A stretch of DNA of 46,381 bases, taken from contig CACZWL010000018.1 in assembly GCA_902784865.1 (NCBI GenBank), positions 1-46,381 of the forward strand. Direction: 5' to 3'. The position numbers and the translations under genes are program-made. This document shows, piece by piece, positions 5,037-42,575 of the stretch; position 1 is the stretch's first letter; each line of letters starts with the position of its first letter. The notes under the pieces are model-generated. The model was not told where the DNA came from, searched no databases, and worked only from the letters and a program-made list of their open reading frames with translations. This stretch comes from an uncultured Bacteroidota bacterium. GTDB lineage: Bacteria > Bacteroidota > Bacteroidia > Bacteroidales > P3.

Positions 5037-5094
5037 CTAGAGATTCTAGATTTTCTAGAAATTCTAGAGATTCTAGAAATTCTAGCTATTCTAG
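5037..5094. repeat. Phased CTAG array, 7 copies at exactly 9 bp
   Basis: CTAG occurs at 5037, 5046, 5055, 5064, 5073, 5082 and 5091 with no deviation from a 9-bp period. The unit is about CTAGAAATT, mostly reading TTCTAGAA around each palindrome. It fills nearly the whole gap between hutI and the ABC ATPase gene, and its last CTAG contains the hutI stop codon. Confidence 0.95.
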
Positions 5095-6341
5095 ATTTCC
5101 TGGCCGTTGATAAACGCGCGTTCGACCTTGTTCTCGCCGTAGGCGTAGGGCATGTAGGCGTAGGAGGGCATAGGCTTGGAGATGAAGAAGTTGGCGCGTT
5201 TTCCGACGGCAATGGTGCCCAGTTCGTGGCTGACGCCCATGGCGTAGGCGGTGTTGAGGGTGGTGGCGTTGAGGGCTTCCTCGGGCGTGAGGCGGTAGCG
5301 GATGCAGGCCATGGAGAGGATGAGCTGCATGTTGAAGGAGGGCGAGGTGCCGGGGTTGTAGTCGGAAGCCATGGCCACGGGGAGTCCGGCCTCGATCATC
5401 TGGCGTGCCGGCGAGAGGGGCAGTCCCAGGAAGAAGGCGCATCCGGGGAGGATGGTGGGCATGGTGTCGGAGCCTTTCAGGCACTCGATTTCGGCATCGC
5501 CCATCTGCTCGAGGTGGTCGACCGAGATGGCGCCGTATTTCACGCCCACCTGCACGCCGCCGGAGACGGCCATCTCGTTGGCGTGGATCTTGGGGCGGAG
5601 GCCGCGCTTGATGCCGGCCTCGAGGATGCGCTCGGTGTCGGCGACGGTGAAGAAGCCCTGGTCGCAGAAGACGTCAATGAAGTCGGCCAGCCCTTCGTCG
5701 GCCACGCATGGCAGCATGTCGTTGATAACCAGGTCGACATAGTCCTCCTGGCGGCCGCGGTACTCCATCGGGATGCCGTGGGCGCCGAGGAAGTTGGACT
5801 TGATGGTCATGGGCGAGTTCTCCTTCAGGCGGCGGATGACGCGGAGGAGCTTCAGCTCGCTCTCGGTGGTGAGGCCGTAGCCGCTCTTGATTTCGATGGC
5901 GCCGGTGCCGAGGCGCATGGCCTCGTCGAGGCGCTGCCGGGCCATGTCGTAGAGCTCGTCCTCGGAGGCCGCGGCCGTGGCCTTGGCGGAGTTGAGGATG
6001 CCGCCGCCGCGCTTGGCAATTTCCTCGTAGGAGAGGCCGCGGATTTTGTCGACGAACTCGGTCTCGCGCGAGTTGGCGTAGACCAGGTGGGTGTGCGAGT
6101 CGCAGAACGAGGGGAAGACCATGCGGCCGGTGGCGTCGACTTCCTTGTCCACTTTCCACTTCCCGCTTTCTGCTTTCCACCCGCTCATCGGGCCGAAAGC
6201 CTTGATCGTGCCGTCCTCGACGAGGAGGTAGGCGTCCTTGACGGTCTCCACCTGCGCCATTTCCTTGCCCTGGGTGCGCAGCTTCGGCTGGCCGGTCTCT
6301 ACCTGCACCAGTTCCTTGATATTCTTGATAAGTGTCTGCAT
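5091..6341 (-). CDS. hutI: Imidazolonepropionase
   Basis: Hydrolyses 4-imidazolone-5-propanoate to N-formimino-L-glutamate, the third step of histidine degradation, in the cytoplasm. The 416-residue protein has the amidohydrolase metal motif SHTH (H83, H85), the substrate region NSRETEF, EIKSGYGL, FLGAHGIP, the later metal His in KIHANEM and the metal Asp in MASDYNPGTSP. I chose the ATG at 6341 because the longer frame runs through the promoter. An odd insertion, residues about 54-69 (WKAESGKWKVDKE), is encoded by a 7-bp tandem array just before the conserved VDATGRMVFPSFCDSHTH region. No other hut gene is in the window. It is the first gene of the minus-strand group. Confidence 0.95.
   Translation of the reverse strand: MQTLIKNIKELVQVETGQPKLRTQGKEMAQVETVKDAYLLVEDGTIKAFGPMSGWKAESGKWKVDKEVDATGRMVFPSFCDSHTHLVYANSRETEFVDKIRGLSYEEIAKRGGGILNSAKATAAASEDELYDMARQRLDEAMRLGTGAIEIKSGYGLTTESELKLLRVIRRLKENSPMTIKSNFLGAHGIPMEYRGRQEDYVDLVINDMLPCVADEGLADFIDVFCDQGFFTVADTERILEAGIKRGLRPKIHANEMAVSGGVQVGVKYGAISVDHLEQMGDAEIECLKGSDTMPTILPGCAFFLGLPLSPARQMIEAGLPVAMASDYNPGTSPSFNMQLILSMACIRYRLTPEEALNATTLNTAYAMGVSHELGTIAVGKRANFFISKPMPSYAYMPYAYGENKVERAFINGQEI
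6143..6177 (-). repeat. In-frame 7-bp tandem array inside hutI
   Basis: Read on the minus strand: GAAAGCA, GAAAGCG, GGAAGTG, GAAAGTG, GACAAGG, five consecutive 7-bp units. It encodes a Trp/Lys/Glu-rich loop that interrupts the N-terminal domain of HutI before the metal-binding HxH. Confidence 0.75.
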
Positions 6342-6362
6342 TTCTTTACTACAATTTTGCTG

Positions 6363-6393
6363 CAAAGATACGACAATTATTTCACATGGCAAA
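6363..6393 (-). promoter_or_regulatory. Promoter of hutI
   Basis: On the minus strand TTTG (6393-6390) precedes TATCTTTG (6370-6363) by 19 bp, the Bacteroidetes -33/-7 pattern. It lies 21 bp before the ATG at 6341. Confidence 0.8.
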
Positions 6394-6499
6394 ATTTATC
6401 TTGCGGGGCCGGCCGGAGGCGGGGACGGGAGGGGTGGCCGAGGGGCGGTGAAAGGGGACGAAAAAAGGGACCAAAACCCGGAAAAAGGGGCTAAAATGG

Positions 6500-6580
6500 C
6501 ACGGACGCAGCAGGCTGGTTACCAGGGCATTGCAATGGGTTGGTTCTGCCTTGGTTCTGCCCTGGTAGGCGAGTGGCAGG
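6500..6580 (+). repeat. Interspersed TTCTGCC element, copy C
   Basis: GCTGGTTACCAG near 6515 is followed by GGTTCTGCCTTGGTTCTGCC at 6542-6561, the most diverged copy. It lies in the 365-bp gap between divergent genes (hutI start 6341, nucleotidyltransferase start 6707). The rest of the gap holds the hutI promoter, a G-rich stretch and a -7 element at 6647-6654. Confidence 0.7.
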
Positions 6581-6646
6581 AGGGGGCCTGGGGGGCGGCA
6601 CGCGCTTTTTGTGCGGGCAGGGTGCCGATATGTCGAGATAATTGCG

Positions 6647-6654
6647 TAACTTTG
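6647..6654 (+). promoter_or_regulatory. -7 element TAACTTTG before the nucleotidyltransferase gene
   Basis: TAACTTTG matches TAnnTTTG, 52 bp before ATG 6707. No convincing -33 box is visible. Confidence 0.45.
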
Positions 6655-6706
6655 CAGGTGCGATTACGTCAGCAACAAACATTGTAACAAACAGAAAAAC
6701 AGAAAG

Positions 6707-7438
6707 ATGAAAGCTATCATACTTGCCGCCGGGACGGCATCGCGGCTGCGCCCGCTGACCGAGAAGACACCGAAGTGCCTGCTGAAGATAGGCGAACGGA
6801 CGCTGCTGGAGCGTTCGATGGACGCGCTGATAGCCGGCGGCATCGGCGAGTTCTGCATCGTGACAGGCTACCTGCACGAGCAGATCGAGCGCTTCGTGGG
6901 CGAACGCTACCCGCAGGTGCGTGTGCGGTTCATACACAACGCCGACTACGCGACGACGAACAACATCTACTCGCTGTGGCTGGCGCGCCCCGAGGCCGAG
7001 GGCGAGGATATCCTGCTGCTGGACAGCGACTTGCTGTACGACCCGCGAATCATAGTCCGCGTGGCGGAGCACCCGAGCGCGAACATCCTGACGCTGATAC
7101 GCCACGAACTTGGCGACGAGGAGATGAAGGTGATGGTCGACAGCGAAGGCAACCTGCTGAGCGTCAACAAGACCAATCCGCCCGCGGCGTCGGTCGGCGA
7201 GAGTCTGGGAATAGAGAAGATGGGGCGCGAGTACACGCGCGCGTTATATAAGGAATTGGAGCCGATGATGCTGCGCGAGGGGCTGGAGAACAAGTACTAC
7301 GAGCTGGCCTTCGAGCGGCTGATACCGCAGGGGCACACGTACAAGGTGCTGGATGTGAGCGACCTCTTCTCGTGCGAGCTCGACACAGTTGAGGATTTCG
7401 AGAACGCCAAGCAGCTGATTCCCGCGGAGTTGTACTAG
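6707..7438 (+). CDS. Nucleotidyltransferase of the LicC/PntC cytidylyltransferase type
   Basis: A 243-residue single-domain sugar-phosphate-type nucleotidyltransferase. The N-terminal pyrophosphorylase signature LAAGTASRLRPLTEKTPK is at residues 6-23, followed by NADYATTNNIYSLWLAR and the metal site LLLDSDLLYD. The short length and the TTNNIYSLW segment resemble CTP:phosphocholine and aminoethylphosphonate cytidylyltransferases rather than hexose enzymes. It probably activates a phospho- or phosphono-alcohol as its CDP derivative. It converges on the operon of flippase, CDP-alcohol transferase and aminotransferase, which would use such a product. Its TAG stop shares the palindrome CTAG with the stop of the convergent gene. 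The substrate is not determinable here. Confidence 0.8.
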   Translation: MKAIILAAGTASRLRPLTEKTPKCLLKIGERTLLERSMDALIAGGIGEFCIVTGYLHEQIERFVGERYPQVRVRFIHNADYATTNNIYSLWLARPEAEGEDILLLDSDLLYDPRIIVRVAEHPSANILTLIRHELGDEEMKVMVDSEGNLLSVNKTNPPAASVGESLGIEKMGREYTRALYKELEPMMLREGLENKYYELAFERLIPQGHTYKVLDVSDLFSCELDTVEDFENAKQLIPAELY

Positions 7439-9467: not shown

Positions 9468-9473
9468 GACGGT

Positions 9474-13185: not shown

Positions 13186-14481
13186 ATGGAATATGACGTG
13201 ATAGTGGTTGGTGGCGGCGCGGCGGGCCTGATGGCCGCCGTGGTGGCGGCCGAGCGCGGCAAGCGGGTGCTGCTACTGGAGAAGATGGACCAGTGCGGCC
13301 GCAAGCTGCGCATCACCGGCAAAGGCCGCTGCAACCTCACCAACACCGCCCCCTTGCGCGAGACGCTGCCCCACATAGGCTCCTCCACCGCCGGCACGAC
13401 AAAGAAGCCCGGCCAGGACGGCGGCGTGTGGCTGCGCAACGCCTACGGACGCTTCTTCAACCGCGAGCTGATGGACTTCTTCGAGCGCCGCGGCGTACCC
13501 CTCGTCGAGGAACGCGGCGGACGCGTGTTCCCCGCCAGCGGCAAGGCCCTCGACATATTCCTAGCCCTTATTGGCGAACTGGAGCAGAGCCCGTTGGTCA
13601 CCATCCGCAAGAACTGTACGGCAAAAAAAATCGAGACCCTCGACGGACAAACCACCGGTGTGGTGTTGCAGAATGGCGACCGCATCAGCTGCCGACACAT
13701 AATACTGGCCACCGGAGGCCTCTCCTACCCCACCACCGGCTCGACCGGCGCAGGCCACTTGATGGCCAAAACGCTGGGCCACACGGTGGTGGACACCGTG
13801 CCGTCGCTGGTGGCGCTGAAGTGCGAGGAGAAGATACCGGAGGAACTTGTCAGCTTCCAACTGAAGAACGTGCAACTATCCGTACTCGACGGAGACACAA
13901 CGATTTACAAGTCACCCATCGGCGAGCTGACCTTCAACCCCGACGGGCTGGCCGGTCCGCTGACCCTCTCCGCCAGCCGTCACGCCACACGTCCCCTCCA
14001 CTCACGCAATCACGCACTTACACAATCACACAATCTGAAGGCCCTGCTCGACCTCAAGCCCGCCCTCACGGCCGAGCAGCTGGACCGCCGCCTACAGACC
14101 GACCTAGACCAGAACGGCACCCGCATCTTCAACGACGCCCTGCGCCTCTGGCTGCCTGCCGAACTCATACCGCTGGCGCTGAAGCAATTGCATATAGAAT
14201 ACTACAAGCGCCTGCACCAAATCAACGGCGAGGAACGAAGCCGCCTGGGCCGCTGGCTGAAGGGCGTACCCTTCACCCTCACCGGCACCCGCGACTGGAC
14301 CGAGGCCATCGTCACCCAAGGCGGCGTGTCGCTGGCCGAAGTGAACCCCAAGACAATGGAATCGCGCCTGGTGAAAGGCCTCTACATCGTCGGCGAACTG
14401 CTCGACCTCGACGCCGACACCGGCGGCTACAACCTCCAAATCGCCTTCTCCACCGGCCACGCCGCCAGCGAATCGCTATAG
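13186..14481 (+). CDS. NAD(P)/FAD-dependent oxidoreductase, HI0933/BaiN family
   Basis: A 431-residue flavoprotein. The dinucleotide-binding motif GGGAAGLMAA is at residues 9-18, followed by the family motifs GRKLRITGKGRCNLTN and ATGGLSYPTTGSTGAGH, and the C-terminal FAD site GLYIVGELLDLDADTGGYNLQIAFSTG. The reaction of most members is unknown; BaiN-type members reduce bile-acid intermediates, which cannot be inferred here. An unusual segment, HSRNHALTQSHN, after LTLSASRHATRP is encoded by an 8-bp tandem array. The stop overlaps the convergent gene's stop within CTATAG (14476-14481). Confidence 0.88.
   Translation: MEYDVIVVGGGAAGLMAAVVAAERGKRVLLLEKMDQCGRKLRITGKGRCNLTNTAPLRETLPHIGSSTAGTTKKPGQDGGVWLRNAYGRFFNRELMDFFERRGVPLVEERGGRVFPASGKALDIFLALIGELEQSPLVTIRKNCTAKKIETLDGQTTGVVLQNGDRISCRHIILATGGLSYPTTGSTGAGHLMAKTLGHTVVDTVPSLVALKCEEKIPEELVSFQLKNVQLSVLDGDTTIYKSPIGELTFNPDGLAGPLTLSASRHATRPLHSRNHALTQSHNLKALLDLKPALTAEQLDRRLQTDLDQNGTRIFNDALRLWLPAELIPLALKQLHIEYYKRLHQINGEERSRLGRWLKGVPFTLTGTRDWTEAIVTQGGVSLAEVNPKTMESRLVKGLYIVGELLDLDADTGGYNLQIAFSTGHAASESL
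14003..14034 (+). repeat. In-gene 8-bp tandem array in the flavoprotein gene
   Basis: CACGCAAT, CACGCACT, TACACAAT, CACACAAT: four 8-bp units in register. It encodes a polar loop in the flavoprotein. The sequence is unlike the GC-rich codons on both sides. Confidence 0.75.
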
Positions 14482-15344: not shown

Positions 15345-17267
15345 TCACCCCTCCGCGGCAATAACGGCGTCCTCCCACTCGGCCATCTTCTGTTCGAGTT
15401 GGGACTTAAGTTGCTGATATTCTTTGTAGAAGTCGGACGACTGGGCATTGCCCGTGGCGAGGACGGCATCGCGCGAGGCAATCTCGGCCTCGAGGGCTTC
15501 GATTTCCTTTTCCTTCTGCGCGACGGCATTTTGCAGCTTGCGGCGCTCGCGCTCGCGCTCCTTGCTCTGCTCATAGGCGGCCTTGGAGGCGGAGGCGGGC
15601 TTTTCCTTGCCGGTATTACTAGTGGAGCTAGTATTACTAGTAGGACTAGTCAAACTAGCTTGGCTAGAAGCCTCCAAGAACTCCATGATGTCGCCCTTGA
15701 ACTCGTGGACGGCGCCGTCGCGGAACTCGTATAGCTCGTCGGTGAGGCCGGAGAGGAAGTCGCGGTCGTGGCTGACCACGATGAGGGTGCCGGTGTACTG
15801 CAGGAGGGCATTCTTGAGGATGTCCTTCGAGTTCATATCCAGGTGGTTGGTAGGCTCGTCGAGAATGAGGAGGTTGCAGGGGGTGAGCAGCAACTTGGCC
15901 AGGGCCAGGCGCGCCTTCTCACCGCCGGAGAGGACCTTGACCTTCTTGTCGATGTCGTCGTCGGAGAAGAGGAAGCTGCCGAGGATGTTGCGTATCTTGG
16001 GCCGTATGTCGCCCTGGGCGATGTCGTCGATGGTCTCGAAGACGGTCTTGTCGAGGTTGAGCATAGCGGCCTGGTTCTGCGCGTAGTAGCCAAGGGCCAC
16101 ACCGGCTCCGAGGCGGAAGGTGCCGGTATAATCGTTGATGTCGCCGACGATGATTTTGGCCATGGTGGACTTGCCTTCGCCGTTGCGTCCGACGAAGGCC
16201 ACCTTGCGGCCGGCGGTGAGCAGGAGGTCGACGCCGTCGAAGACCTGGTGGTCGCCGTAGGCCTTGCCGAGGCGCTGGGCCTCGACGACTATCTTGCCGC
16301 TATGCGGGGCCGGGGGGAACTGGAAGTGTATGCTCTCGCTGCTGACCTCGTCGACGGTGATTTTCTCCATGCGCTCGAGCATCTTGATGCGGCTCTGCAC
16401 CTGCTTGGACTTGGTGGCTTTGTAGCGGAAGCGCTCGATAAAGGCCTCGATCTGGGCCACCTGCCGCTGCTGGTTGGTGAGCTGTGCCATCTGGCTGGCG
16501 CGGCGTTCCTGCATCTGGACGACGTACTCGGAGTAGGGGCAGCGGTAGTCGTAGATGCGGCCGGCGGTGATTTCGATGGTGCGGTTGGTGATGTTGTCGA
16601 GGAAGGTGCGGTCGTGGCTGACGAGGATGACGGCGCCGGGGTAGGCGGCGAGGTAGTTCTCGAGCCACTGGATGGACTGTATGTCGAGGTGGTTGGTAGG
16701 CTCGTCGAGGAGGAGGAAGTCGGGCCTGCGGAGGAGGAGTTTGGCCAGTTCGACGCGCATCTGCCAGCCGCCACTGAAGACGGCGACGGGGCGGTCGAAG
16801 TCGCTGTGGCGGAAGCCGAGGCCGAGGAGCACCTTCTCGGCCTGCTCGCGGCGGCGGCTGCCGCCGAGGATGGCGATGTGCTCGGTGACCTCGTGGTGGC
16901 GTTCCAGCAGGCGCGTGTAGTCGGCGCTCTCGTAGTCGGTGCGCTCGGCAATCTGGAGGGCGAGGCTTTCCTGCTCGCGCTCGAGGTCGTCGAGCTGGCT
17001 GAAGGCGGTGAGGGCCTCCTCGATCACGGTGCCGACGGAGTCGGGGACCATCTCCTGCGGCAGGTAGCCGACGGACTGCCCGGCGGCCATGACGATGGTG
17101 CCGCTGGCGGGTTCCTGCCAACCGCAGAGGATTTTGAGGAGGGTGGACTTGCCGGCGCCATTCATGCCGACGAGGCCCACGCGGTCGTGGTCGGCGATGT
17201 TGAAGGTGACGCTCTTGAAGAGGTCGGTGCCGGTGAAGTGGACTGAGAGATTGTTGACGCTTATCAT
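15345..17267 (-). CDS. ABC-F family ATPase with C-terminal coiled coil
   Basis: A 640-residue soluble ATPase with two ABC domains and no membrane part, as in ribosome-associated ABC-F proteins. Domain 1: Walker A GMNGAGKST, VFSGGWQMR signature, LLLDEPTNHLD. A helical linker with IERFRYKATKSKQVQSR follows. Domain 2: GRNGEGKST, LSGGEKARLALAK, LILDEPTNHLD. The C-terminus is a charged coiled coil (KERERERRKLQNAVAQKEKEIEALEAE). The link to the coiled coil contains a Ser/Thr/Asn tract (about ASSQASLTSPTSNTSSTSN) encoded by the 9-bp CTAG array. I chose ATG 17267, since the longer frame starts inside the tonB terminator region. Confidence 0.9.
   Translation of the reverse strand: MISVNNLSVHFTGTDLFKSVTFNIADHDRVGLVGMNGAGKSTLLKILCGWQEPASGTIVMAAGQSVGYLPQEMVPDSVGTVIEEALTAFSQLDDLEREQESLALQIAERTDYESADYTRLLERHHEVTEHIAILGGSRRREQAEKVLLGLGFRHSDFDRPVAVFSGGWQMRVELAKLLLRRPDFLLLDEPTNHLDIQSIQWLENYLAAYPGAVILVSHDRTFLDNITNRTIEITAGRIYDYRCPYSEYVVQMQERRASQMAQLTNQQRQVAQIEAFIERFRYKATKSKQVQSRIKMLERMEKITVDEVSSESIHFQFPPAPHSGKIVVEAQRLGKAYGDHQVFDGVDLLLTAGRKVAFVGRNGEGKSTMAKIIVGDINDYTGTFRLGAGVALGYYAQNQAAMLNLDKTVFETIDDIAQGDIRPKIRNILGSFLFSDDDIDKKVKVLSGGEKARLALAKLLLTPCNLLILDEPTNHLDMNSKDILKNALLQYTGTLIVVSHDRDFLSGLTDELYEFRDGAVHEFKGDIMEFLEASSQASLTSPTSNTSSTSNTGKEKPASASKAAYEQSKERERERRKLQNAVAQKEKEIEALEAEIASRDAVLATGNAQSSDFYKEYQQLKSQLEQKMAEWEDAVIAAEG
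15619..15667. repeat. In-frame phased CTAG array, 6 copies at exactly 9 bp
   Basis: CTAG at 15619, 15628, 15637, 15646, 15655 and 15664, strictly 9 bp apart, here mostly as ACTAGT. Because 9 is a multiple of 3, the array keeps the ABC-F frame and gives a repeating three-residue Ser/Thr pattern in the linker. Confidence 0.95.
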
Positions 17268-21895: not shown

Positions 21896-23746
21896 ATGGA
21901 AGACAACAGATTGTTTAGCGAATTCCCGCCCGTCTCGACCGAGAAATGGGAGGAGGTTATCAACAAAGACCTCAAAGGTGCCGACTACGAGAAGAAGCTC
22001 GTATGGCGCACGCTGGAAGGCTTCAAGGTGAAGCCCTACTACCGTGCCGAAGACCTGGAAGGCCTTGAATATCTGGACAGTAACCCCGGCGAGAAGCCCT
22101 ACACGCGCGGCAAGCAGGCCGGCGGCAACGTGTGGGAGGTGCGTCAGGACATCCGCATCGCCGACCTGAAGGAGGCCAACCGCGTGGCCCTCGACGCCGT
22201 GGAGCGCGGATGCACCGCCATCGGCCTCTGCACCAAGAACGTGAAGAGCGTGGACGACATGGCCACCCTGCTCAACGGCATCTATATCAACGCCGTACAG
22301 GTGAACTTCCTCTGCTCGGAGGACTACCTGGGCCTGCTGAAGATATATGTCGACTACGCCCGCCGCGAGGGCTACAAGACCGACGAGCTGAGCGGCTCGT
22401 GCGGCTGGGACATGTTCCGCTATGCGCTGAAACACGGCAAGTTCCACCGCGGCGAAGAGGGCGACCTGGCCATGGCCAAGGAACTTGTGGAGTATGCCGC
22501 CAAAGAGCTGCCCAAGTTCCGCGTGCTGACCGTCGACGGCAGCGTCCTCAACAGCGCCGGCAGCAACAGCGTGCAGGAGCTGGGCTTCAGCCTGGCCGCC
22601 GCCAACGAGCTGGTGAGCCGCCTGACCGACATGGGCGTCAAGATGGAGCATGCCGCACGCAGCATCCAGGTGAACTTCGGCGTGGGCAGCACCTACTTCA
22701 TGGAGATGGCCAAAATACGCGCCGCCCGCCTGCTGTGGAGCAAGATAGCCGAGCAGTACCAGCCCGAGTGCGACTGCGCCTACAAACTGTATATCAACGC
22801 CACGACGAGCAGCTGGAACCAGTCGGTGTACGACCCGTACGTCAACATGCTGCGCTCGACGACGGAGGCCATGTCGGCCGCCGTGGCCGGTGCCGACAGC
22901 ATCTCGGTGCTGCCGTTCGACAACGCCTACAAGGAGGCCGACGACTTCGGCTACCGCATAGCCCGCAACCAGCAGCTGCTGCTCAAAGAGGAGAGCTACC
23001 TGGACAAAATCGCCGACCCCGCCGCCGGCAGCTACTACATCGAGAACCTCACCGACCAGATTGCCCGCGGCGCCTGGGACCACTTCATGAAAGTGGAAGA
23101 GGCCGGCGGCTACTGCAAGGCCCTGCGCGCCGGCATGGTGCAGGACGAGGTGGAGAAGACCGCCCGCGAGCGCGACAACAACATAGCCACCCGCAAGACC
23201 ACCATCCTCGGCACCAACCAGTATCCCAACCTGTTGGAGAAGATGGGCGACAAGATTGAAGGCACCCACTGCTGCAACTGCGAGAAAGGCACCGAGGTGA
23301 AGACCCTCAAGGTCTACCGCGGCGCCGAACCGTTCGAGGCCCTGCGCATGCAGACCGAGAAAGCGGCCCGCCGCCCCAAGGTGTTCCTGCTCACCTACGG
23401 CAACCTGGCCATGCGCAAGGCCCGCTCGGGCTTTGCCACCAACTTCTTCGGCGTGGCCGGATATGAAATCATCGACAACCCCGGCTTCGCCACCCCCGAA
23501 GAGGGCGCCAAGGCCGCACTCGAGAGCAAGGCCGACGTGGTGGTGCTCTGCTCGAGCGACGACGAATACGCCGAGCTGACCGAGCCCGTGTGCAAAGCGC
23601 TGAAGGGCAAGGTGAAAAGCCTCGTCCTCGCCGGATTCCCCAAAGAGATGGTGGAGACCTACAAAGGCTATGGCATCGACGAGTTCATCCACGTGAAAAC
23701 CAACGTCCTGGAAAGCCTCACCGCCTTCCAGAAACAACTGCTGTAA
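21896..23746 (+). CDS. mutA: Methylmalonyl-CoA mutase small subunit
   Basis: The 616-residue non-catalytic subunit of adenosylcobalamin-dependent methylmalonyl-CoA mutase, which interconverts succinyl-CoA and methylmalonyl-CoA in the propionate pathway. It opens with the mutase barrel (LFSEFPPVSTEKWEEVINKDLKGADYEKKLVWRT region) and continues with the TIM barrel (SWNQSVYDPYVNMLRSTTEAMSAAVAGAD region, DPAAGSYYIENLTDQIA). The C-terminal flavodoxin-like domain (about 500-616) lacks the DxHxxG cobalamin motif (NFFGVAGYEIIDNPGF), as expected of the small subunit. The large subunit mutB, usually directly downstream, is not here. Confidence 0.93.
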   Translation: MEDNRLFSEFPPVSTEKWEEVINKDLKGADYEKKLVWRTLEGFKVKPYYRAEDLEGLEYLDSNPGEKPYTRGKQAGGNVWEVRQDIRIADLKEANRVALDAVERGCTAIGLCTKNVKSVDDMATLLNGIYINAVQVNFLCSEDYLGLLKIYVDYARREGYKTDELSGSCGWDMFRYALKHGKFHRGEEGDLAMAKELVEYAAKELPKFRVLTVDGSVLNSAGSNSVQELGFSLAAANELVSRLTDMGVKMEHAARSIQVNFGVGSTYFMEMAKIRAARLLWSKIAEQYQPECDCAYKLYINATTSSWNQSVYDPYVNMLRSTTEAMSAAVAGADSISVLPFDNAYKEADDFGYRIARNQQLLLKEESYLDKIADPAAGSYYIENLTDQIARGAWDHFMKVEEAGGYCKALRAGMVQDEVEKTARERDNNIATRKTTILGTNQYPNLLEKMGDKIEGTHCCNCEKGTEVKTLKVYRGAEPFEALRMQTEKAARRPKVFLLTYGNLAMRKARSGFATNFFGVAGYEIIDNPGFATPEEGAKAALESKADVVVLCSSDDEYAELTEPVCKALKGKVKSLVLAGFPKEMVETYKGYGIDEFIHVKTNVLESLTAFQKQLL

Positions 23747-23749
23747 ACA

Positions 23750-23841
23750 CAGTGTTCAGTGTTTAGATTAAAGGAGGCAAACGAAAGTTTGTATTGGATA
23801 AAACCGCACCGCGCAACTGAACACTGAACACTGAACACTGC
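23750..23841 (+). repeat. Inverted repeat ending in a 7-bp ACTGAAC array
   Basis: ACTGAAC is repeated 3.6 times at 23816-23841. CAGTGTTCAGTGTT at 23750-23763 is its exact reverse complement (AACACTGAACACTG at 23827-23840 and 23820-23833), so the whole gap between mutA and the permease gene can fold into a 14-bp stem. A strong Shine-Dalgarno-like AAAGGAGG (23770-23777) lies in the loop, 65 nt before the ATG. Confidence 0.75.
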
Positions 23842-23842
23842 A

Positions 23843-24925
23843 ATGCTCCGACTAGACCGATACATACTCGGCAAGTACCTGACGACGTTCCTGGTGGCGC
23901 TGGCACTCATCATCATCATCGTCATCACGTTCGACGTGTCGGAGAAACTCGACAAGTTCCTCTCGCACCACGCGACGCTGTGGCAGATTGTATCCATCTA
24001 CTACCTGAACTTCATCCCGGGCTTCGTCAACCTCTACAGCCCGCTGTTCATCTTCATCTCGGTGATATTCTTCACCTCGAAGATGGCGGGCAACAGCGAG
24101 ATAGTGGCCATCCTGAGTTCGGGCATACGCTACCGGCGCATGCTGCGTCCCTACATGTACGGGGCCACGCTGGTGGCCCTGGCGGTGTTTGTTCTGGGCA
24201 ACTTCGTCATACCCCTCTCGAACCGCAAACTGATTGATTTCGAGGAACAATACGTCAAATCGAAGGCCACCAACTACTACTCCAACCTGCACTTCCAGTC
24301 CGAGAAAGGCGTCCAGGTCTACGTGGAGAGCTACGACGTGAAACGCCAGCGCGCCTACATGCTGCGCCGCGAGGTAATAGCCCCCGACGGGCAGCTGCTG
24401 CAGCGCGAGACTGCCGACAACATAGTCTACGACAGCACGTTAGCCCTGTGGAAATGCACCAACTACTCGATACGCACCATCGACAGCAACCGCCACGAGA
24501 CCCTCGCCACGCGCGCCACCGCCGACGTCGACCTGCGCCTGCAGCCCGAAGACCTCAACGTGCGCTCCACCCGCGTGGAGACCATGAACACGCCGCAGCT
24601 CGTCCGCTACATACACCGCGAAGAGATGCGCGGCACCGGCACGGTGAAAGCCTCGCGCATCGAACTCTACCAGCGCCTGCTCAATCCTCTGGCAATCATC
24701 GTGATGACCCTCATCGGTGTGGCCATCGCCGCCCGCAAGAGCCGCGGCGGCATCGGCGTACACCTGGCCATTGGCATCGCCATCGCCTTCTCGTTCATCG
24801 TCTTCATGAAGGTCACCACCGTCTTCGCCACCAACGGCGACCTCTCGCCCTTCCTGGCCGTGCTGCTGCCGCAGATAGTATTCGGCCTCGCCGCAGCCTA
24901 CCTCATCTACAAAGCACCGAAATGA
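23843..24925 (+). CDS. LptG/LptF-type permease (YjgP/YjgQ family)
   Basis: A 360-residue inner-membrane protein of the LPS export ABC transporter LptBFG type. Hydrophobic segments lie at about 12-32, 55-80 and 100-125 before a periplasmic beta-jellyroll-like middle region (YVESYDVKRQRAYMLRREVI), and three more follow from about 280 (NPLAIIVMTLIGVAIAARKSRGGIG). The N-terminus (MLRLDRYILGKYLTTF) is typical. Its stop TGA overlaps the sufE start as ATGA. Which of the two Lpt permeases it is cannot be told. Confidence 0.88.
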   Translation: MLRLDRYILGKYLTTFLVALALIIIIVITFDVSEKLDKFLSHHATLWQIVSIYYLNFIPGFVNLYSPLFIFISVIFFTSKMAGNSEIVAILSSGIRYRRMLRPYMYGATLVALAVFVLGNFVIPLSNRKLIDFEEQYVKSKATNYYSNLHFQSEKGVQVYVESYDVKRQRAYMLRREVIAPDGQLLQRETADNIVYDSTLALWKCTNYSIRTIDSNRHETLATRATADVDLRLQPEDLNVRSTRVETMNTPQLVRYIHREEMRGTGTVKASRIELYQRLLNPLAIIVMTLIGVAIAARKSRGGIGVHLAIGIAIAFSFIVFMKVTTVFATNGDLSPFLAVLLPQIVFGLAAAYLIYKAPK

Positions 24926-25356: not shown

Positions 25357-25674
25357 ATGCAAGCCAACAAAGAAACCATCAAGGACGCCGTCGTCAATTG
25401 CCTGCGCAGCATCTACGACCCCGAGATACCCGTCAACATCTACGACCTCGGGCTCATCTACAACATCGACGTCGACGACGAGCTCAACGTCAAGGTCCTC
25501 ATGACCATGACCGCCCCCGACTGCCCCGAGGCAGAGTACATGTTCCAGGAAGTCAAGCAGATGATAAGCTGGATCAAGGAAGTGAAGAGCGTCGACGTCG
25601 AGCTCACCTTCGACCCGCCTTGGACCATGGACCGCATACCCGACGAGGTGAAACTGGAGCTGGGGCTACTCTGA
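25357..25674 (+). CDS. MIP18/DUF59 family Fe-S assembly protein (SufT-like)
   Basis: A 105-residue single DUF59 domain. The motifs IYDPEIPVNIYDLGLIY (about 19-35), MTAPDCPEAE with the reactive Cys56, and LTFDPPWTMDRIPDE match the SufT/PaaD-like family, which helps Fe-S cluster assembly or transfer. Adjacency to sufE supports that role. The end reads TGA TAA, then ACTAG, where the CTAG array begins. Confidence 0.9.
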   Translation: MQANKETIKDAVVNCLRSIYDPEIPVNIYDLGLIYNIDVDDELNVKVLMTMTAPDCPEAEYMFQEVKQMISWIKEVKSVDVELTFDPPWTMDRIPDEVKLELGLL

Positions 25675-25678: not shown

Positions 25679-25709
25679 CTAGAAAAGCTGGAAACTCTAG
25701 AAATTCTAG
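25679..25709. repeat. Phased CTAG array, 4 units of 9 bp
   Basis: CTAG at 25679, 25697 and 25706, with a degenerate CTGG at 25688, keeps a 9-bp period: CTAGAAAAG, CTGGAAACT, CTAGAAATT, CTAGAAAGA. It lies 4 bp after the DUF59 gene and ends 20 bp before the permease start. The unit is the same as in the 5037 array. Confidence 0.85.
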
Positions 25710-25729
25710 AAAGAAAACTGCGAAAAGGA

Positions 25730-26809
25730 ATGAGGACCCCCTTCAAGAAGAAGTCAGCCGCCGACCTGGTGGGCAGCTCGCTGGGCCGCATGGCGTGGCG
25801 GCGCTTCCGCCGCAACCCGTTGTCGCTCGGCAGCCTCATCGTCATCTGCCTCCTCGCCCTCGTGGCCCTGCTGGGCTACCTCATCACCCCCGACCACACC
25901 CCCTACTGCAACCAGCAATACCTCGAGCTGGCCACCCTCAAGCCCTTCAGCAAGGCCCAGTTCCTCTGCGTGGCAACCGACGGCGAGCGCCACAGCCCCA
26001 ACATGCTCAAAGGCTGGCCGCTGGACTACACCGCCACCCCTATAATAAAATATGAACGCGCGCGCGACAGCATCTTCGCCACCCCCTACAACGGCGACCC
26101 CCTGGCCTACGCCGCCAGCGAGGCCACCGTCGAGCAGCGCACCTTCGTCCTCGGCACCGATGCCTACGGGCGCGACGTGCTGAGCCTCCTCATGCTGGGC
26201 TCGCGCGTCAGCCTCTCCATCGGATTCATCGCCATAGTCATCGCCCTGCTCCTGGGCATCACCCTCGGCGCCCTGGCGGCCTACTGCGGCGGGTGGGTCG
26301 ACAACCTGATCATGTGGATCATCAACGTCGTGTGGTCCATCCCCACCGTCCTGCTCGTCATCGCCATCACCTTCGTCCTCGGCAAAGGCTTCTGGCAGAT
26401 ATTCATCGCCGTAGGCCTGACGATGTGGGTCGACATAGCGCGCGTGGTGCGCGGCGAGGTGCTGGGCATCAAGGAGAAAGAGTATGTCGAAGCCACCCGC
26501 GCCCTCGGCTACGGCACCTTCCGCACCGTCTTCCGCCACATCCTGCCCAACATTGCCGGCGCCGTGGTCGTTGTGGCGGCCTCCAACTTCGCCAGCGCCA
26601 TCCTCCTCGAAGCCGGCCTCTCCTTCCTCGGCATCGGCGTCCAGCCCCCCATGCCCTCGTGGGGCATGATGGTCAAGGAAAACTACGGCTACCTGCTGCT
26701 CGACAGCGCCTACCTGGCCCTGCTCCCCGGCGCCGCCATCATGGTCACCGTGCTGGCCTTTATGCTCCTCGCCAACGGTCTCCGCGACGCCCTCGACGTG
26801 AAGCGCTGA
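25730..26809 (+). CDS. DppC/OppC-like ABC transporter permease
   Basis: A 359-residue peptide-type ABC permease. The N-terminal OppC helix (RFRRNPLSLGSLIVICLLALVALLGY) is followed by a periplasmic insert of about 90 residues, then LGTDAYGRDVLSLLMLGSRVSL, the permease core and the coupling (EAA) motif EYVEATRALGYGTFRTVFRHILPN, and the final LSFLGIGVQPPMPSWGMMV. The large insert is common in Bacteroidetes homologues. No partner permease, ATPase or binding protein is adjacent, so the transporter is assembled from dispersed genes. Confidence 0.9.
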   Translation: MRTPFKKKSAADLVGSSLGRMAWRRFRRNPLSLGSLIVICLLALVALLGYLITPDHTPYCNQQYLELATLKPFSKAQFLCVATDGERHSPNMLKGWPLDYTATPIIKYERARDSIFATPYNGDPLAYAASEATVEQRTFVLGTDAYGRDVLSLLMLGSRVSLSIGFIAIVIALLLGITLGALAAYCGGWVDNLIMWIINVVWSIPTVLLVIAITFVLGKGFWQIFIAVGLTMWVDIARVVRGEVLGIKEKEYVEATRALGYGTFRTVFRHILPNIAGAVVVVAASNFASAILLEAGLSFLGIGVQPPMPSWGMMVKENYGYLLLDSAYLALLPGAAIMVTVLAFMLLANGLRDALDVKR

Positions 26810-36144: not shown

Positions 36145-36267
36145 AAAAGTTATTCCCCGATTTTCCCATCGGTGGGAAATGATGGGAAAGAGTCGAACTA
36201 TTCACCTACCAGATACCTACCATTCACCTGGCAGAATGCCCTCGGCCGCCCCCCGTCCCGTGCCGAG

Positions 36268-37886: not shown

Positions 37887-39467
<1,581 letters not shown>

Positions 39468-39497
39468 AAACCGAATTCACAACCCAGAATTCAAGCA

Positions 39498-40385
39498 ATG
39501 GCCAACCTCAAAGAAGTCCGCACACGCATAGCCTCCGTCAGCTCCACGCAGCAGATTACCTCTGCCATGAAAATGGTCTCTGCCGCCAAGTTCCGCCGTG
39601 CGCAGAACGCCATCACCGGCATGCGCCCCTACACCGCTCAGCTGCAGGAGATTATCAACGATATCGACACCGGCGACGGCATCAGCACCCCCTACCACGC
39701 ACAGCGCCCGCTGCACAACGTGCTCCTCGTCGTCGTCACCTCGAACAAAGGCCTCTGCGGCGCCTTCAACAGCAACGTCATCAAGCAGGCTCAGCAACGC
39801 ATCGACCACTACCGCAGCTCCCTGCCCCAGGACGCCGCGCTGCACGTCATGTCCATCGGCAAGAAAAGCTCCGAACTCCTTGTGCGACAGAAAGACCTCG
39901 ACCTCACCACCCACGACGAACTCCTCGACAACCCCTCCTTCGACGCCATCGCAGCCCTCGCCGACAGCATCATGACACGCTTCACCGACAAGCAGCTCGA
40001 CCACGTCGAAGTGGTATACAACCAGTTCAAAAACTCCCTCTCACAAATCCTCTCCACCGAGCAGTTCCTCCCCATCGCCCCCACAGCTGCGCATACGCAA
40101 CAGACTGAGGCCGAAAGCCATAAGTCAGACTACATCTTCGAGCCCTCGAAAGAGGACATCCTCCGCGAGATGGTGCCCCTCACCCTGCGCTCCACCTTCT
40201 ACCGCATTGTCCTCGACTCCCTCGCCGCCGAGCACGGAGCCCGCATGACAGCCATGCAGAAGGCCACCGACAACGCCACCGAGCTCCTCAAAGAGCTCCG
40301 CCTCAGCTACAACAAAGCCCGCCAAGCCGCCATCACCAACGAGATTATCGAAATCGTCTCCGGCAGCGAAGCACTGAAATCCTAG
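39498..40385 (+). CDS. atpG: ATP synthase F1 subunit gamma
   Basis: 295 residues: the N-terminal coiled coil MANLKEVRTRIASVSSTQQITSAMKMVSAAKFRRAQ, the central SNKGLCGAFNSNV and the C-terminal MQKATDNATELLKELRLSYNKARQAAITNEIIEIVSG. It is the rotor shaft. It ends the local operon; atpD and atpC are elsewhere. Its TAG stop lies inside the first CTAG of a phased array. Confidence 0.96.
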   Translation: MANLKEVRTRIASVSSTQQITSAMKMVSAAKFRRAQNAITGMRPYTAQLQEIINDIDTGDGISTPYHAQRPLHNVLLVVVTSNKGLCGAFNSNVIKQAQQRIDHYRSSLPQDAALHVMSIGKKSSELLVRQKDLDLTTHDELLDNPSFDAIAALADSIMTRFTDKQLDHVEVVYNQFKNSLSQILSTEQFLPIAPTAAHTQQTEAESHKSDYIFEPSKEDILREMVPLTLRSTFYRIVLDSLAAEHGARMTAMQKATDNATELLKELRLSYNKARQAAITNEIIEIVSGSEALKS

Positions 40386-40415
40386 GACGTCCTAGGGCCT
40401 CCTAGGGCTTCCTAG
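40382..40415. repeat. Phased CCTAGG array, 4 copies at exactly 10 bp
   Basis: CTAG at 40382, 40392, 40402 and 40412, each as CCTAGG or TCCTAGG, with units close to TCCTAGGGCC. The first CTAG contains the atpG stop codon. The spacing is 10 bp, against 9 bp in the other three CTAG arrays. Confidence 0.95.
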
Positions 40416-40460
40416 GATTCCCTCCCTACCCCCTCTCCGAAAAAAAAATCAACCCCCATC

Positions 40461-40490
40461 AGGGCCGGCCGGAACCCCTCCGCCGGCCCT
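40461..40490. terminator. Hairpin AGGGCCGGC / GCCGGCCCT after the atp operon
   Basis: A perfect 9-bp stem (40461-40469 with 40482-40490) and a 12-nt loop, but no T tract on the plus strand. It may end the atp transcript with help. The rest of the 351-bp gap up to recJ has no gene; a weak -7-like TAATTTTA lies at 40716-40723. Confidence 0.4.
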
Positions 40491-40736
40491 TGCCCTGCCA
40501 TCCCCCTAGGCAAGACGAAGAGAGGAAGAAGAGGATACCTTCAAAACATTGGAAAACAAGCTGGTACAAAAGTGCCAAAAACGCCATTTTCCGAAAAAAA
40601 AATCAAAAAAAAATCAGCCTTTTTCGCCCCTCGTCGGCAGGGTGTCGGCCGCCGGTCGGGACCCGTTTTCTGGCCATAGTTGAAAAGTTTTTTTCCCCAT
40701 TTCGAAAAAATGTCGTAATTTTACGGCCAGAAAAAT

Positions 40737-42575
40737 ATGAAAGATAAACATTGGATAATTAGAGAAGACTATGATTTAGAGACCGTTGAGAAACTTGCTG
40801 CTTCGCTGGGCGTTGACAAAATCATCGCCACTCTGCTCGTAGAGCGGGGGGTCACGACCTTCGATGAGGCTCGACGCTTCTTCCGACCGGCCCTCGACCA
40901 AATCCACGACCCCTTCCTCATGAAAGGCATGAAAGAGGCCATTGCCCGCATCAATGCAGCAATCGAACGACAGGAACGCATCATGGTCTATGGCGACTAC
41001 GACGTCGATGGCACATCCGCCGTAGCCCTTGTCTATTCCTACTTCAAGGAATTGGACCCCAACATCGACTTCTACGTGCCCGACCGCGAGCGCGAAGGCT
41101 ACGGCATCTCCTACCAAGGCATCGACTACGCCGCGCAGACGGGCGTCAGGCTCATCATCGCCCTCGACTGCGGCATCAAGGCCATGGAGCAGATCGACTA
41201 TGCCAAGGAGCGCGGCATCGACTTCATCATCGGCGACCACCACCTCCCGGGCGACGAGGTGCCGCAGGCCGTCGCCGTCCTCGACCCCAAGCAGGCCGAC
41301 TGCCCCTACCCCTACAAGGAGCTCAGCGGCTGCGGCATAGGCTTCAAAATCGTCGAGGCTCACCTCGAACAGCGCATGGGCGTGCGCCTCTGCGACCTCC
41401 CAGAGCAACTCGACGACACCCGCCTACAGCGCCAGGAAGACCTCAAACTCAGGCTCTTGAAGTACCTCGACCTCGTGGCCGTCAGCATCGCCTCCGACAT
41501 CGTCCCCATCATGGGCGAGAACCGCGTCCTGGCCTACTTCGGCCTCCGCGTCCTCAACACCAAGCCCCGCGCCGGCATCGAGGCCATACTCAAGTACGGC
41601 CATGTCGACCGCCGCAAGGCCGAACCGTCGGAGCAGACCGAGCAGACCGACAAGTCGAAAGCCGGATACTTCGAAAAAGAACTCACCGTCACCGACCTCG
41701 TCTTCCTCGTCGGCCCACGCATCAACGCCGCCGGCCGCATCCGCTCGGCCTTCGACTCCGTGCGCCTCATGCTCACCGAGGACACCAACATCGCCCGACG
41801 CCTGGCCGAGGACATCAACAGCTACAACCTCGAGCGCAAAGAACTCGACACCAGCGCCACCGAAGAGGCCAAACGCCGCATCGAGAAAGACCCCTTCTAC
41901 CAGGGGCGCCAGTCGCTCGTCCTCTACGACCCGGGATGGCACCGCGGCGTCGTCGGCATCGTCGCCAGCCGCATCGTCGAGGCCTACTACAAGCCCACCA
42001 TCGTCTTCACCCGCGGCAGCGACGACCTCATCACAGGCTCCGCACGCTCCATCGGCGAGTTCGACGTACACCTCGCCCTCGAGAAATGCGCCGACCTCCT
42101 CGAGCACTTCGGCGGCCACAAGTGCGCCGCCGGCGTCTCCCTGCGCCAGGAAAACATGCGCGCCTTCGTCGAACGCTTCGAGAACCTCGTCCGCGAAGGC
42201 ATGGGCCCCGAAGAGGCCGTCCCGGAGATCGAGGTCGACGCCGAACTGGGCTTCTCGCAGATCACGCCCAAATTCCTCCGCATCCTCAAGCAGTTCGCCC
42301 CCTTCGGCCCCGAAAACAACGTGCCCGTCTTCGTCACACGCGAGCTCGTCGACACCGGCAACGCACGCATCGTAGGCACCAACCACCTCAAACTCAACGC
42401 CATCCCCATCGCCGAACGCTCGGCACCCTACCCCGCCATCGCCTTCCAGATGGGCGAATGCATCAGCCGCGTGCGCCGCGAACGCTTCGACCTCTGCTAC
42501 AACCTCGAGGAGAACTACTGGCGCGGCCGCACCGAAATACAGCTCAACGTCAAGGATATCAAGTTCAACTATTAA
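40737..42575 (+). CDS. recJ: Single-stranded-DNA-specific exonuclease RecJ
   Basis: 612 residues; 5'-3' ssDNA exonuclease in recombination and mismatch repair. DHH-family motifs: MVYGDYDVDGTSA, LIIALDCGI, IIGDHHLPGD, then PRINAAGRIRSA and the DHHA1 part with GWHRGVVGIVASRIVE and FGGHKCAAGVSL. Length is typical. Between LKYGHVDRRKA and LTVTDLVFLVGPRINAAGR it carries the polar insert EPSEQTEQTDKSKAGYF, encoded by a 9-bp array. ettA follows after 13 bp, probably in the same operon. Confidence 0.96.
   Translation: MKDKHWIIREDYDLETVEKLAASLGVDKIIATLLVERGVTTFDEARRFFRPALDQIHDPFLMKGMKEAIARINAAIERQERIMVYGDYDVDGTSAVALVYSYFKELDPNIDFYVPDREREGYGISYQGIDYAAQTGVRLIIALDCGIKAMEQIDYAKERGIDFIIGDHHLPGDEVPQAVAVLDPKQADCPYPYKELSGCGIGFKIVEAHLEQRMGVRLCDLPEQLDDTRLQRQEDLKLRLLKYLDLVAVSIASDIVPIMGENRVLAYFGLRVLNTKPRAGIEAILKYGHVDRRKAEPSEQTEQTDKSKAGYFEKELTVTDLVFLVGPRINAAGRIRSAFDSVRLMLTEDTNIARRLAEDINSYNLERKELDTSATEEAKRRIEKDPFYQGRQSLVLYDPGWHRGVVGIVASRIVEAYYKPTIVFTRGSDDLITGSARSIGEFDVHLALEKCADLLEHFGGHKCAAGVSLRQENMRAFVERFENLVREGMGPEEAVPEIEVDAELGFSQITPKFLRILKQFAPFGPENNVPVFVTRELVDTGNARIVGTNHLKLNAIPIAERSAPYPAIAFQMGECISRVRRERFDLCYNLEENYWRGRTEIQLNVKDIKFNY
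41620..41655 (+). repeat. In-frame 9-bp tandem array inside recJ
   Basis: CCGAACCGT, CGGAGCAGA, CCGAGCAGA, CCGACAAGT: four units of 9 bp giving a Ser/Glu-Gln-Thr pattern (SEQTEQTDKS) in a linker of RecJ before the conserved PRINAAGR region. Confidence 0.75.

Follow-up and report, generated by a model that had tools for sequence, protein, structure and literature searches.

Unusually many tandem arrays with units of 7–11 bases are present in this gut bacterium and in many of its relatives, and one class of them, built on CTAG, points to a DNA process behind it. The window analysed here is a stretch of 46,381 bp (contig CACZWL010000018.1) from an uncultured member of the Bacteroidales, whose genome is referred to as G000. 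Our preferred reading, to which we give a probability of about 0.5, is that slipped-template synthesis with a step of 7–11 nt produces the arrays, that a reading-frame filter sorts them, and that a CTAG-recognising factor acts on one class; we infer both the synthesis and the factor from the patterns described below.

Array density was 15.0 per 100 kb in nine stretches of the genome picked regardless of arrays and 18.3 per 100 kb over all 438 kb sampled from it, while shuffled sequences gave 0.1–0.8. Stretches from congeners yielded 16.4 arrays per 100 kb as against 1.5 in 11 stretches from other genera. Large samples beyond G000 come from three genomes only (about 420 kb each), and since one genome per species was compared, differences in copy number are differences between species. 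A sequence-only reading of the window had called the density unusual for a bacterial chromosome. This holds for the genome and the genus, judged against shuffles and other genera, but not for the window itself, which at 10.8 per 100 kb lies below the genome mean. Its expectation that density would exceed that of shuffled controls, and that relatives would carry such arrays, was borne out; the relatives' arrays differ in copy number.

Within the window each array's match was scored at its own lag against 100 block-wise dinucleotide shuffles, and genes were called with a custom gene caller and Pfam (Table 1). Six of the eight arrays originally named had a match that no shuffle reached; for array 6148 an equally good match at any lag of 6–12 arose 0.2 times per shuffle. 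The overall similarity of array 15619 is ordinary, yet it holds six exact CTAGs at 9-bp steps, and CTAG-CTAG neighbours 9 or 10 bp apart number 15 in the window as against 0.54 per shuffle. Seven of the eight are real (six by similarity, 15619 by its CTAG spacing), and 41620 is given up as chance. Of the eight, 5037, 23816, 25679 and 40382 lie at gene junctions and 6148, 14003, 15619 and 41620 in coding sequence. The CTAG at 5091 supplies the TAG that is the predicted stop of the amidohydrolase gene 5091–6341, which we take to be HutI-like, and the first CTAG of array 40380..40417 does the same for the ATP synthase gene. The 11-bp repeat at 36200..36229 is within chance as a repeat match alone and was recognised by its shared flank. 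By eye, array 23814..23843 has an inverted partner, ACAGTGTTCAGTGTTT, upstream in the same spacer. An Rfam scan of the window matched a tRNA only.

Table 1. Short tandem arrays and a related repeat in the window, with the number of shuffles (of 100) that equalled the observed match.
Array	Position	Strand	Unit and copies	Context	Shuffles
5037	5037..5096	.	CTAG-N5, 7 copies, 9-bp steps	Between HutI-like amidohydrolase gene 5091-6341 and downstream ABC-transporter ATPase gene 4362-5018	0
6148	6141..6180	-	7-bp, TTTCCAC on + strand	N-terminal part of HutI-like coding sequence	0
14003	13999..14035	+	8-bp, CACRCAAT	Inside HI0933-like flavoprotein gene 13186-14481	0
15619	15619..15667	-	CTAG-N5, 6 copies, 9-bp steps	In frame in ABC-F-type ATPase gene 15345-17267, segment past second ABC domain	8
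23816	23814..23843	.	7-bp, ACTGAAC	Precedes LptF/LptG-family gene 23843-24925	0
25679	25679..25712	.	CTAG, CTGG, CTAG, CTAG in 9-bp register	55-bp spacer between genes 25357-25674 and 25730-26809	0
	36200..36229	+	11-bp CCTACCA repeat	Copy of dispersed intergenic hairpin element (GAGTCGAA..TTCA, 11-bp units)	97
40382	40380..40417	+	CCTAGG, 4 copies, 10-bp steps	3' end of ATP synthase gene 39498-40385 (Pfam ATP-synt, gamma)	0
41620	41625..41651	+	Claimed 9-bp array, about 2.2 copies	RecJ-like gene 40920-42575; indistinguishable from chance	26

The leading periods are 7, 8, 9 and 11, and the mix differs by genome. Heptamers are most abundant in G000 and G002; 109 arrays of 7 bp were counted in 420 kb of G002 as against none in 419 kb of its array-poor congener G015, and G013 has 69 8-bp arrays to 43 7-bp ones. 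The excess is concentrated at periods 7–11 in non-coding and 7–9 in coding DNA, with a smaller excess at lag 6 (12 vs 4.0 in non-coding DNA). A unit length near one helical turn, as first suggested, does not describe this spectrum, for in the window's genome the periods peak at 7, 9 and 11 with fewer at 8 and 10. Nor are the units unrelated, as had been claimed, since families recur at many loci. Twelve of the 18 11-bp arrays in the sample belong to one family, located in dispersed hairpin elements with shared flanks. TTAA at 10-bp steps was considered as a further array class and rejected: there is no three-copy array, and the pairs are in many cases the stem of the dispersed hairpin element. 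Some neighbouring arrays carry the same unit inverted, namely 4/5 close pairs of 7-bp arrays in G000, 13/45 in G002 and 2/4 in G013, and for 8-bp arrays 2/2, 3/38 and 0/6, respectively.

The corresponding sites in congeners are empty or are occupied by arrays of different unit and period. Array 5037 is absent in all ten congeners with usable anchors, and the anchors stand 114 bp apart in the window vs 38–40 bp in seven of the ten. The site of the 7-bp array 6141..6180 is also filled in G001 and G006, the latter with the same base altered in several units, and no 7-bp array was called there in nine other congeners with usable anchors. At 13999..14035 the array of G002 has a 7-bp unit; G008 and G023 lack an array and are 21 bp shorter (anchors were weak in the other 11). 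Orthologues of site 15619 contain 9-bp arrays of CTAG, of TCTGA type or of AAGGACCTT, or no array. The anchor distance at site 23814 is 114 bp here vs 20, 20, 33 and 24 bp in G008, G356, G366 and G011, and 629 bp, with another 7-bp array, in G022 (anchors weak in the other nine congeners); at 25679 it is 77 bp here vs 21 bp in G356 and 29 bp in G022, and G011 carries a different 9-bp array (anchors were likewise weak in the other 11). Because density exceeds that of controls and the same places in congeners are empty or hold other units and periods, an array-forming process, as originally proposed, is supported.

How the arrays change is also informative. Of 169 comparisons at coding sites, 165 give a length difference divisible by three, and 52 of 79 at non-coding sites are net insertions (in neither set are the comparisons independent). 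The further apart two units lie in a 7- or 8-bp array, the less alike they are (in the 7-bp arrays of G002, identity is 0.82 for units one step apart and 0.66 for units five steps apart), which we read as the mark of local copying; in the 9-bp arrays of G002 identity drops and then climbs again. Units are also rewritten in place. Between G000 and G001 the same base has changed in all four 7-bp units of one array, another variant being unmoved, and over 24 array pairs, which share sites and species and may include some non-orthologous arrays, 47 same-column same-change pairs were found vs 5.6 expected. In a gene that we take to be macroglobulin-like, the G023 orthologue is of equal length and has no first CTAG array.

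Slipped-template synthesis would operate as follows. In this Bacteroidales lineage a short sequence would be copied onto the adjoining DNA, with a preference for steps of 7 to 11 nucleotides. This would happen in replication or repair, when the growing strand shifts back by one step, pairs again and copies a few bases. A slip that is kept would add a unit; if it is reversed and the strand returns, the neighbour would be overwritten in register. Arrays would form and be replaced at gene junctions and in protein segments that tolerate them, selection would purge those that break a reading frame, and the dominant step (7, 8 or 9) would vary between genomes. For CTAG-N5 arrays there would be a second layer, in which a CTAG-recognising factor holds the core in a 9-bp register and the spacers are free to drift. 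Against this reading, ordinary slippage predicts neither the 7–11 preference nor the recurrence of unit families at many loci nor the kept CTAG core. A bolder form of the idea, which we consider doubtful, is that gut and rumen Bacteroidales possess a dedicated or altered DNA-synthesis activity with a fixed step of 7–11 nt that rewrites neighbours in register, in place and by insertion, in genic and intergenic DNA alike; CTAG would be its privileged landing or cutting site and the CTAG-N5 arrays its footprint.

The CTAG-N5 class is set apart from the other arrays by a kept core and free spacers. CTAG repeated every 9 bp exactly, with AT-rich spacers that vary, makes up 51 arrays of three copies or more across the genome, and the pattern has 162 matches vs 0 for the reversed control pattern. 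Counts per genome range from 0 to 162 within the genus, and 7 of 24 congeners lack the three-copy pattern. Among the matches listed, orthologous CTAG arrays differ at 4/124 core vs 35/130 spacer positions, a contrast biased by the fact that the arrays were found by their CTAG; its three ABC-F pairs share sequences. When variable-spacer arrays are classed by tetramer and period, CTAG at period 9 comes first (12/16 in G000 and 7/7 in 16 other congener stretches); in G002 and G013 these classes are led by non-CTAG cores (7-bp CACT, 8-bp AATG). A stem formed by self-complementary spacers was considered and rejected, with positions 1 and 5 above and 2 and 4 below expectation.

Pattern scans returned at least 116 stretches from named genomes and at least 119 from viral contigs, so that the taxonomic picture is a sample; 17 of the 116 listed were set aside as non-Bacteroidales by title. 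Among the matches listed, many Bacteroidales records contain CTAG-N5 arrays, named Prevotella isolates among them, as do some Verrucomicrobiota-type MAGs. Prevotellamassilia timonensis, of which there is an isolate, has 31 matches to the pattern. Among the matches listed, the spacers are variable in 93 of 118 arrays from Bacteroidales records vs 29 of 144 from viral contigs. Spacer identity in these 118 arrays does not drop over the first four steps (0.55 to 0.62) and is 0.85–0.97 in viral arrays, most of which are plain satellites, again among the matches listed. Three records titled only 'bacterium' (L053, L060, L074) are included in the spacer-identity and core-difference counts; excluding them from a density recount made little difference, non-CTAG arrays falling from 27.0 to 26.0 per 100 kb among the matches listed. 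Our literature search found no paper on CTAG repeats in Bacteroidales or Prevotella; CTAG profiling is a published topic in Salmonella, going by the available part of that literature.

MetJ and TrpR bind tandem boxes cooperatively. By analogy, the CTAG-N5 arrays could be selected operators, with a protein binding CTAG cooperatively once per 9-bp unit, and the other arrays ordinary satellites. The kept core with free spacers, the exact 9-bp register (10 bp for the CCTAGG variant) and the several arrays adjoining gene starts or ends all suit such operators, and this is the strongest competitor of slipped-template synthesis. We nevertheless think it unlikely, as 10 of the 23 sampled CTAG arrays with three or more copies fall within predicted coding sequence, array 5037 is missing from every anchored congener, other sites have been refilled with other units, and the counts per genome vary so widely within the genus. 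MetJ, TrpR and the omega repressor likewise use a short core at a fixed short step, the likeness here resting on core conservation only; they act at single regulatory sites, unlike the about 51 arrays per genome found here, many in genes and gained or lost between species.

Transposition or gene conversion might instead move ready-made arrays from locus to locus, as the recurring unit families and the shared flanks of the main 11-bp hairpin family would allow. This is improbable: CTAG spacers in G000 are less alike between arrays (identity 0.415) than within one (0.55–0.58 over the first three steps), so the loci do not look like copies of one another, no shared sequence was seen by eye in the 15-bp flanks of the CTAG arrays listed, and conversion in place with equal length in the macroglobulin-like gene counts against it. 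Since the CTAG arrays are unlike the rest, more than one process is probably involved. The sequence-only reading is supported as to an array-forming process (shuffle excess, recurrence in congeners, turnover of copy number and units, occurrence in coding and non-coding DNA, 7- and 8-bp arrays in genes) but probably not as to a single general mechanism.

Selection on proteins for flexible or helical linkers would explain the multiples of three at coding sites and peptides such as LExLEx or SSx, but it is very improbable as the source of the arrays, which per base are denser outside predicted genes, have 7- and 8-bp periods that are not codon multiples inside predicted genes, and in the case of CTAG are read in two frames. 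An assembly artefact or chance, for which one might cite the 43 contigs of the assembly and the failure of array 41620, is extremely improbable given the near-empty shuffles, the reversed control and the recurrence of CTAG arrays in other assemblies, named isolates included.

No polymerase, repair enzyme or recombinase was tied to the arrays among those examined. A reverse transcriptase (DGR- or telomerase-like) was rejected as their maker, as RVT_1 occurs in 9 of 18 genomes and in none of G000, G001 and G002. MutS_V matches were present in 18/18 genomes, and with MutS-family matches in all of them loss of mismatch repair does not readily account for the arrays; G020 is without the top-scoring MutS match, which is presumably MutS1-like. 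Nor did the type of Y-family polymerase fit the array load cleanly: IMS was found in 18/18 genomes, with forms of about 500 aa in G001, G002 and G013, two other matches in G000 and, in G015, a match that we assume to be UmuC-like.

Long simple sequence repeats (Mrazek et al. 2007), as described in the available parts of PMC4679880 and PMC4692102, have units of 5–11 nt, favour heptamers, are patchy between species and prefer multiples of three in genes; slippage at a polymerase-sized step has been proposed for them. Our arrays are alike in unit range, with tandem 5–11 nt units beyond chance for the genome, in patchiness and in the genic preference for multiples of three. They differ in that 7- and 8-bp arrays also occur in genes, the dominant step varies among congeners, units change in register, and the CTAG class combines a palindromic core with free spacers. 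The TAACTGA heptamers of Beggiatoaceae, Cyanobacteria and five Bacteroidetes, as far as PMC4679880 was available, form many short, mostly intergenic arrays with a similarly patchy distribution; they represent one heptamer whose near variants are rarely repeated, in contrast to the other units, many variants and several periods in our unit lists (one restricted to top families), where the best-kept unit is a tetramer with free spacers. The G-rich GGGANTN heptamers of Xanthomonas and Nostoc, quadruplex candidates in the accessible text of PMC4692102, likewise combine a conserved core with variable positions and show some inverted neighbours as well as length and sequence variation between close relatives, but the CTAG arrays are palindromic in the core and AT-rich in the spacers. 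Borg tandem repeats are, in the part of PMC9879509 available, mostly perfect, with all units in ORFs divisible by three. They too are pervasive, young, genic and intergenic, and keep the frame in genes; here units are imperfect, 7- and 8-bp arrays lie in predicted genes, and the setting is a bacterial chromosome.

These genomes provide a natural experiment, in which related species have few or many arrays and the same sites are empty, filled or refilled, and this contrast makes the question of step length in bacterial repeats testable. The occurrence of CTAG-N5 arrays in named isolates suggests a sequence-specific factor. Arrays also lengthen conserved proteins or alter their sequence (an ABC-F-type ATPase, a HutI-like amidohydrolase and a macroglobulin-like protein), so the process supplies new sequence to genes.

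The window is a complete contig (contig 18, 46,381 bp). The genome it comes from measures 2.40 Mb, is split into 43 contigs and belongs to a genus which includes the MAG Candidatus Colimorpha merdihippi; Candidatus Colimorpha is filed by NCBI under Bacteroidales incertae sedis. Tandem Repeats Finder recovered repeats at the places of all eight short arrays claimed in the sequence-only reading, and seven of the eight are beyond chance. In six the match at the array's own lag was never reached in 100 shuffles of the window. The overall similarity of array 15619 was reached in 8 of 100 shuffles, yet it carries six CTAG at exact 9-bp steps. The exception is array 41620, whose match was reached in 26 of 100 shuffles. 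CTAG occurs 32 times in the window, below the 95 expected from trinucleotide composition or the 167 from base composition, while 15 CTAG-CTAG neighbour pairs have a spacing of 9 or 10 bp (0.54 per shuffle).

Array density was measured with Tandem Repeats Finder (a minimum of 2.5 copies and a score of 44 or more) in 438 kb of the window's genome (G000), comprising the window and 20 further stretches. Nine of these were picked regardless of arrays and eleven lay near known CTAG matches or contained some, so the sample is skewed towards CTAG. It holds 80 arrays, or 18.3 per 100 kb; the nine stretches picked regardless of arrays have 15.0, the other eleven 22.7 and the window 10.8. A set of 20 congener stretches, each from a different genome and one of them reading as N, gave 58 arrays (16.4 per 100 kb), and eleven stretches from outside the genus, most with lower GC, gave three (1.5 per 100 kb). 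Shuffled controls of the three sets gave 0.1, 0.2 and 0.8, and the density exceeds that of shuffled sequence in both G000 and its congeners. Larger samples of three congeners had 43.8 (G002), 27.2 (G013) and 6.3 (G015) arrays per 100 kb.

The array-forming mechanism had been proposed to act on unrelated sequences; instead, unit families recur at periods 7 to 11, and the mix of periods is given by genome in the table. Non-coding runs in G000 exceed local shuffles most strongly at lags 7 (20 vs 1.3), 9 (10 vs 0.3), 10 (7 vs 0) and 11 (19 vs 0), with a smaller excess at lag 6 (12 vs 4.0); coding runs do so at lags 7 (19 vs 0.7), 8 (7 vs 0.3) and 9 (18 vs 6.0). The ACCTACCAGA family is located in dispersed intergenic elements with a common hairpin flank. 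Two dispersed intergenic elements were seen, one with TTTCCCATCGGTGGGAAATGATGGGAAAGAGTCGAAGTATTCA and one with TTAATAGATGTTAAAC..GTTTAACATCTATTAA; in both, CCTACCAGA units come next, spaced 11 bp. Arrays of period 7 or 8 that have a unit in common sometimes form facing inverted pairs less than 250 bp apart, also in predicted genes.

Array counts, recurrent unit families and positions of repeat features (counts from 419-438 kb per genome; L numbers are fetched stretches)
Feature	Period (bp)	Count, unit or position
Arrays, G000	7/8/9/10/11	34/10/24/5/18
Arrays, G002	7/8/9/10/11	109/43/33/8/29
Arrays, G013	7/8/9/10/11	43/69/11/1/17
Arrays, G015	7/8/9/10/11	0/4/8/0/13
Unit family	7	TTTTCAA-like
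Unit family	8	AACGCAAT-like
Unit families	9	CTAG and TCCGGA
Unit family	10	CCTAGG
Unit family	11	ACCTACCAGA; 12/18 of 11-bp arrays
Dispersed element copies	11	window 36205; L032:578, L033:16202, L036:7309, L044:15359, L045:16901, others
Inverted array pairs		L042:8920-9004, L046:14340-14420, L036:738-808, window about 23735-23843

The CTAG class (a CTAG core at 9-bp steps with variable spacers) stands apart. Among 295 CTAG in the 438 kb, neighbours are 9 bp apart 85 times and 10 bp apart 20 times, and any other distance of 4-59 bp occurs 0-2 times. Genome-wide, G000 has 162 matches to three CTAG at 9-bp steps and 111 to four, which makes 51 arrays with three copies or more; for the reversed control (GATC at 9-bp steps) there is no match. 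The pattern was found in 17 of 24 congeners (1 to 92 matches each), but in none of 16 genomes that represent other genera within the order; its four-copy form turned up once among 295 further genomes of the phylum. In a scan of all tetramer cores except homopolymers (periods 7-11, at least four exact cores, variable spacers) CTAG at 9 came first in G000, with 12 of 16 arrays (runner-up 4 of 8), and also in a further 16 congener stretches, with 7 of 7 (runner-up 4 of 4); other cores led in G002 and G013. The reversed control is itself present in several genomes (for example, 7 three-copy matches in G031 and 26 four-copy in G189).

Among the matches listed from other records, three-copy CTAG matches in named isolates numbered 195 in Prevotella conceptionensis 9403948 and 31 each in Prevotella sp. 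tc2-28 and Prevotellamassilia timonensis (control 0 in all three), and a Kiritimatiellae MAG had 152 pattern matches (control 3). Single hits outside Bacteroidales mean little, since the control equals or exceeds the pattern in Achromobacter sp. HZ34 (6 and 6) and Planctomycetes Pla163 (42 against 3). Variable-spacer arrays beyond Bacteroidota were seen, among these matches, in Verrucomicrobia UBA3783 (L087) and Kiritimatiellae RGIG3447 (L159). In the 96 CTAG-bearing stretches labelled Bacteroidales, again among the matches listed, arrays of 7-11 bp other than CTAG also reach a density of 26 per 100 kb.

The spacers are AT-rich though the sample is 59 percent GC. Their identity in G000 is 0.55, 0.57 and 0.58 for units one, two and three steps apart, and 0.415 when different arrays are compared; among the matches listed, 118 Bacteroidales-record arrays show 0.55-0.62 for up to four steps and viral ones 0.85-0.97. 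Between orthologous arrays 4 of 124 core and 35 of 130 spacer positions differ (Fisher p 5e-8, overstated by sequences shared between pairs and by finding the arrays through CTAG). Of 23 sampled arrays (at least three copies, 8-10 bp spacing), ten lie in predicted genes, four at a gene edge and nine between genes. Nine coding arrays in eight genes were translated; they use two of the possible frames, giving L-E-x or S/T-S/R-x, and the remaining frame contains TAG.

Arrays come and go at single sites. At 5037, 38-40 bp separate the anchors in seven of ten congeners with usable anchors (114 bp in G000), and the other three have 54-87 bp and no array; the first gene's stop in G001 overlaps the start of the gene that follows. 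The linker of the ABC-F-type ATPase gene has five or more CTAG in six of 30 orthologous loci (G000, G023, G356, G366, G021, G346); by eye, others have a 9-bp TCTGA-type array (e.g. G001, G014), AAGGACCTT (G002) or none. For the three sites that follow, 9 to 11 of the 14 congeners had anchors too weak to use. Site 14003 has a 7-bp array in G002, and G008 and G023 lack an array and are 21 bp shorter; the anchors of 23816 are 20-33 bp apart in four congeners (114 in G000), and those of 25679 are 21 and 29 bp apart in two (77 in G000), with a different 9-bp array in G011. Many of the length comparisons share a site with others. The difference to an array-free partner at coding sites was a multiple of three in 165 of 169. 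Of these 169, 50 differ from zero by no more than 3 bp, 32 amount to 70 percent of the array or more, 78 fall in between and nine have a partner that is longer; at non-coding sites the 70 percent mark was reached in 52 of 79.

Units of 7- and 8-bp arrays are less alike the farther apart they lie, which is what local copying predicts; in the 9-bp arrays of G002 identity drops, then climbs again. In long 7-bp arrays of G002 (L380:5371, 8401, 8670) the unit sequence changes stepwise at a constant 7-bp phase. In an orthologous, putative macroglobulin-like gene (the name is our reading of the sequence) G000 and G001 are set apart by one identical base change in four of four units of a 7-bp array, while they share the unit-two variant. 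In the second CTAG array T stands against A in the same spacer column of five of five units. Across 24 aligned, non-independent array pairs (26 found, two with fewer than two differences dropped) same-change pairs numbered 47, vs 5.6 expected if differences are dealt out randomly. Where the first CTAG array sits, G023 has an array-free stretch of equal length. From this, in-register rewriting without length change seems to take place alongside insertion.

Mrazek (2007) described long simple sequence repeats with units of 5-11 nt, among which heptamers are favoured, and the idea of a polymerase footprint (as relayed in PMC4679880 and PMC4692102). With the TAACTGA (PMC4679880), GGGANTN (PMC4692102) and Borg repeats (PMC9879509) and the high STR density of Bacteroidota reported in a tree-of-life survey (PMC12699852), the general phenomenon is already known. 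In the openly licensed papers that our searches reached, we found neither the CTAG-N5 class nor a genome-specific step mix nor in-register change described. Reverse transcriptase, loss of MutS and the type of Y-family polymerase were checked in 18 genomes and yielded no candidate enzyme. A Y-family polymerase of about 500 amino acids with extra sequence in its catalytic domain was seen in G001:C14, G002:C22 and G013:C14 (L439-L441), and an equally long IMS match in nine further congeners.

We infer that slipped-template synthesis with a 7-11 nt step lies behind the arrays. It would explain local similarity, gain at junctions and filtering by frame; a transient slip would also explain same-column changes and conversion in place. 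The kept CTAG core lies outside what slipped-template synthesis explains, and a putative CTAG-recognising factor would keep it.
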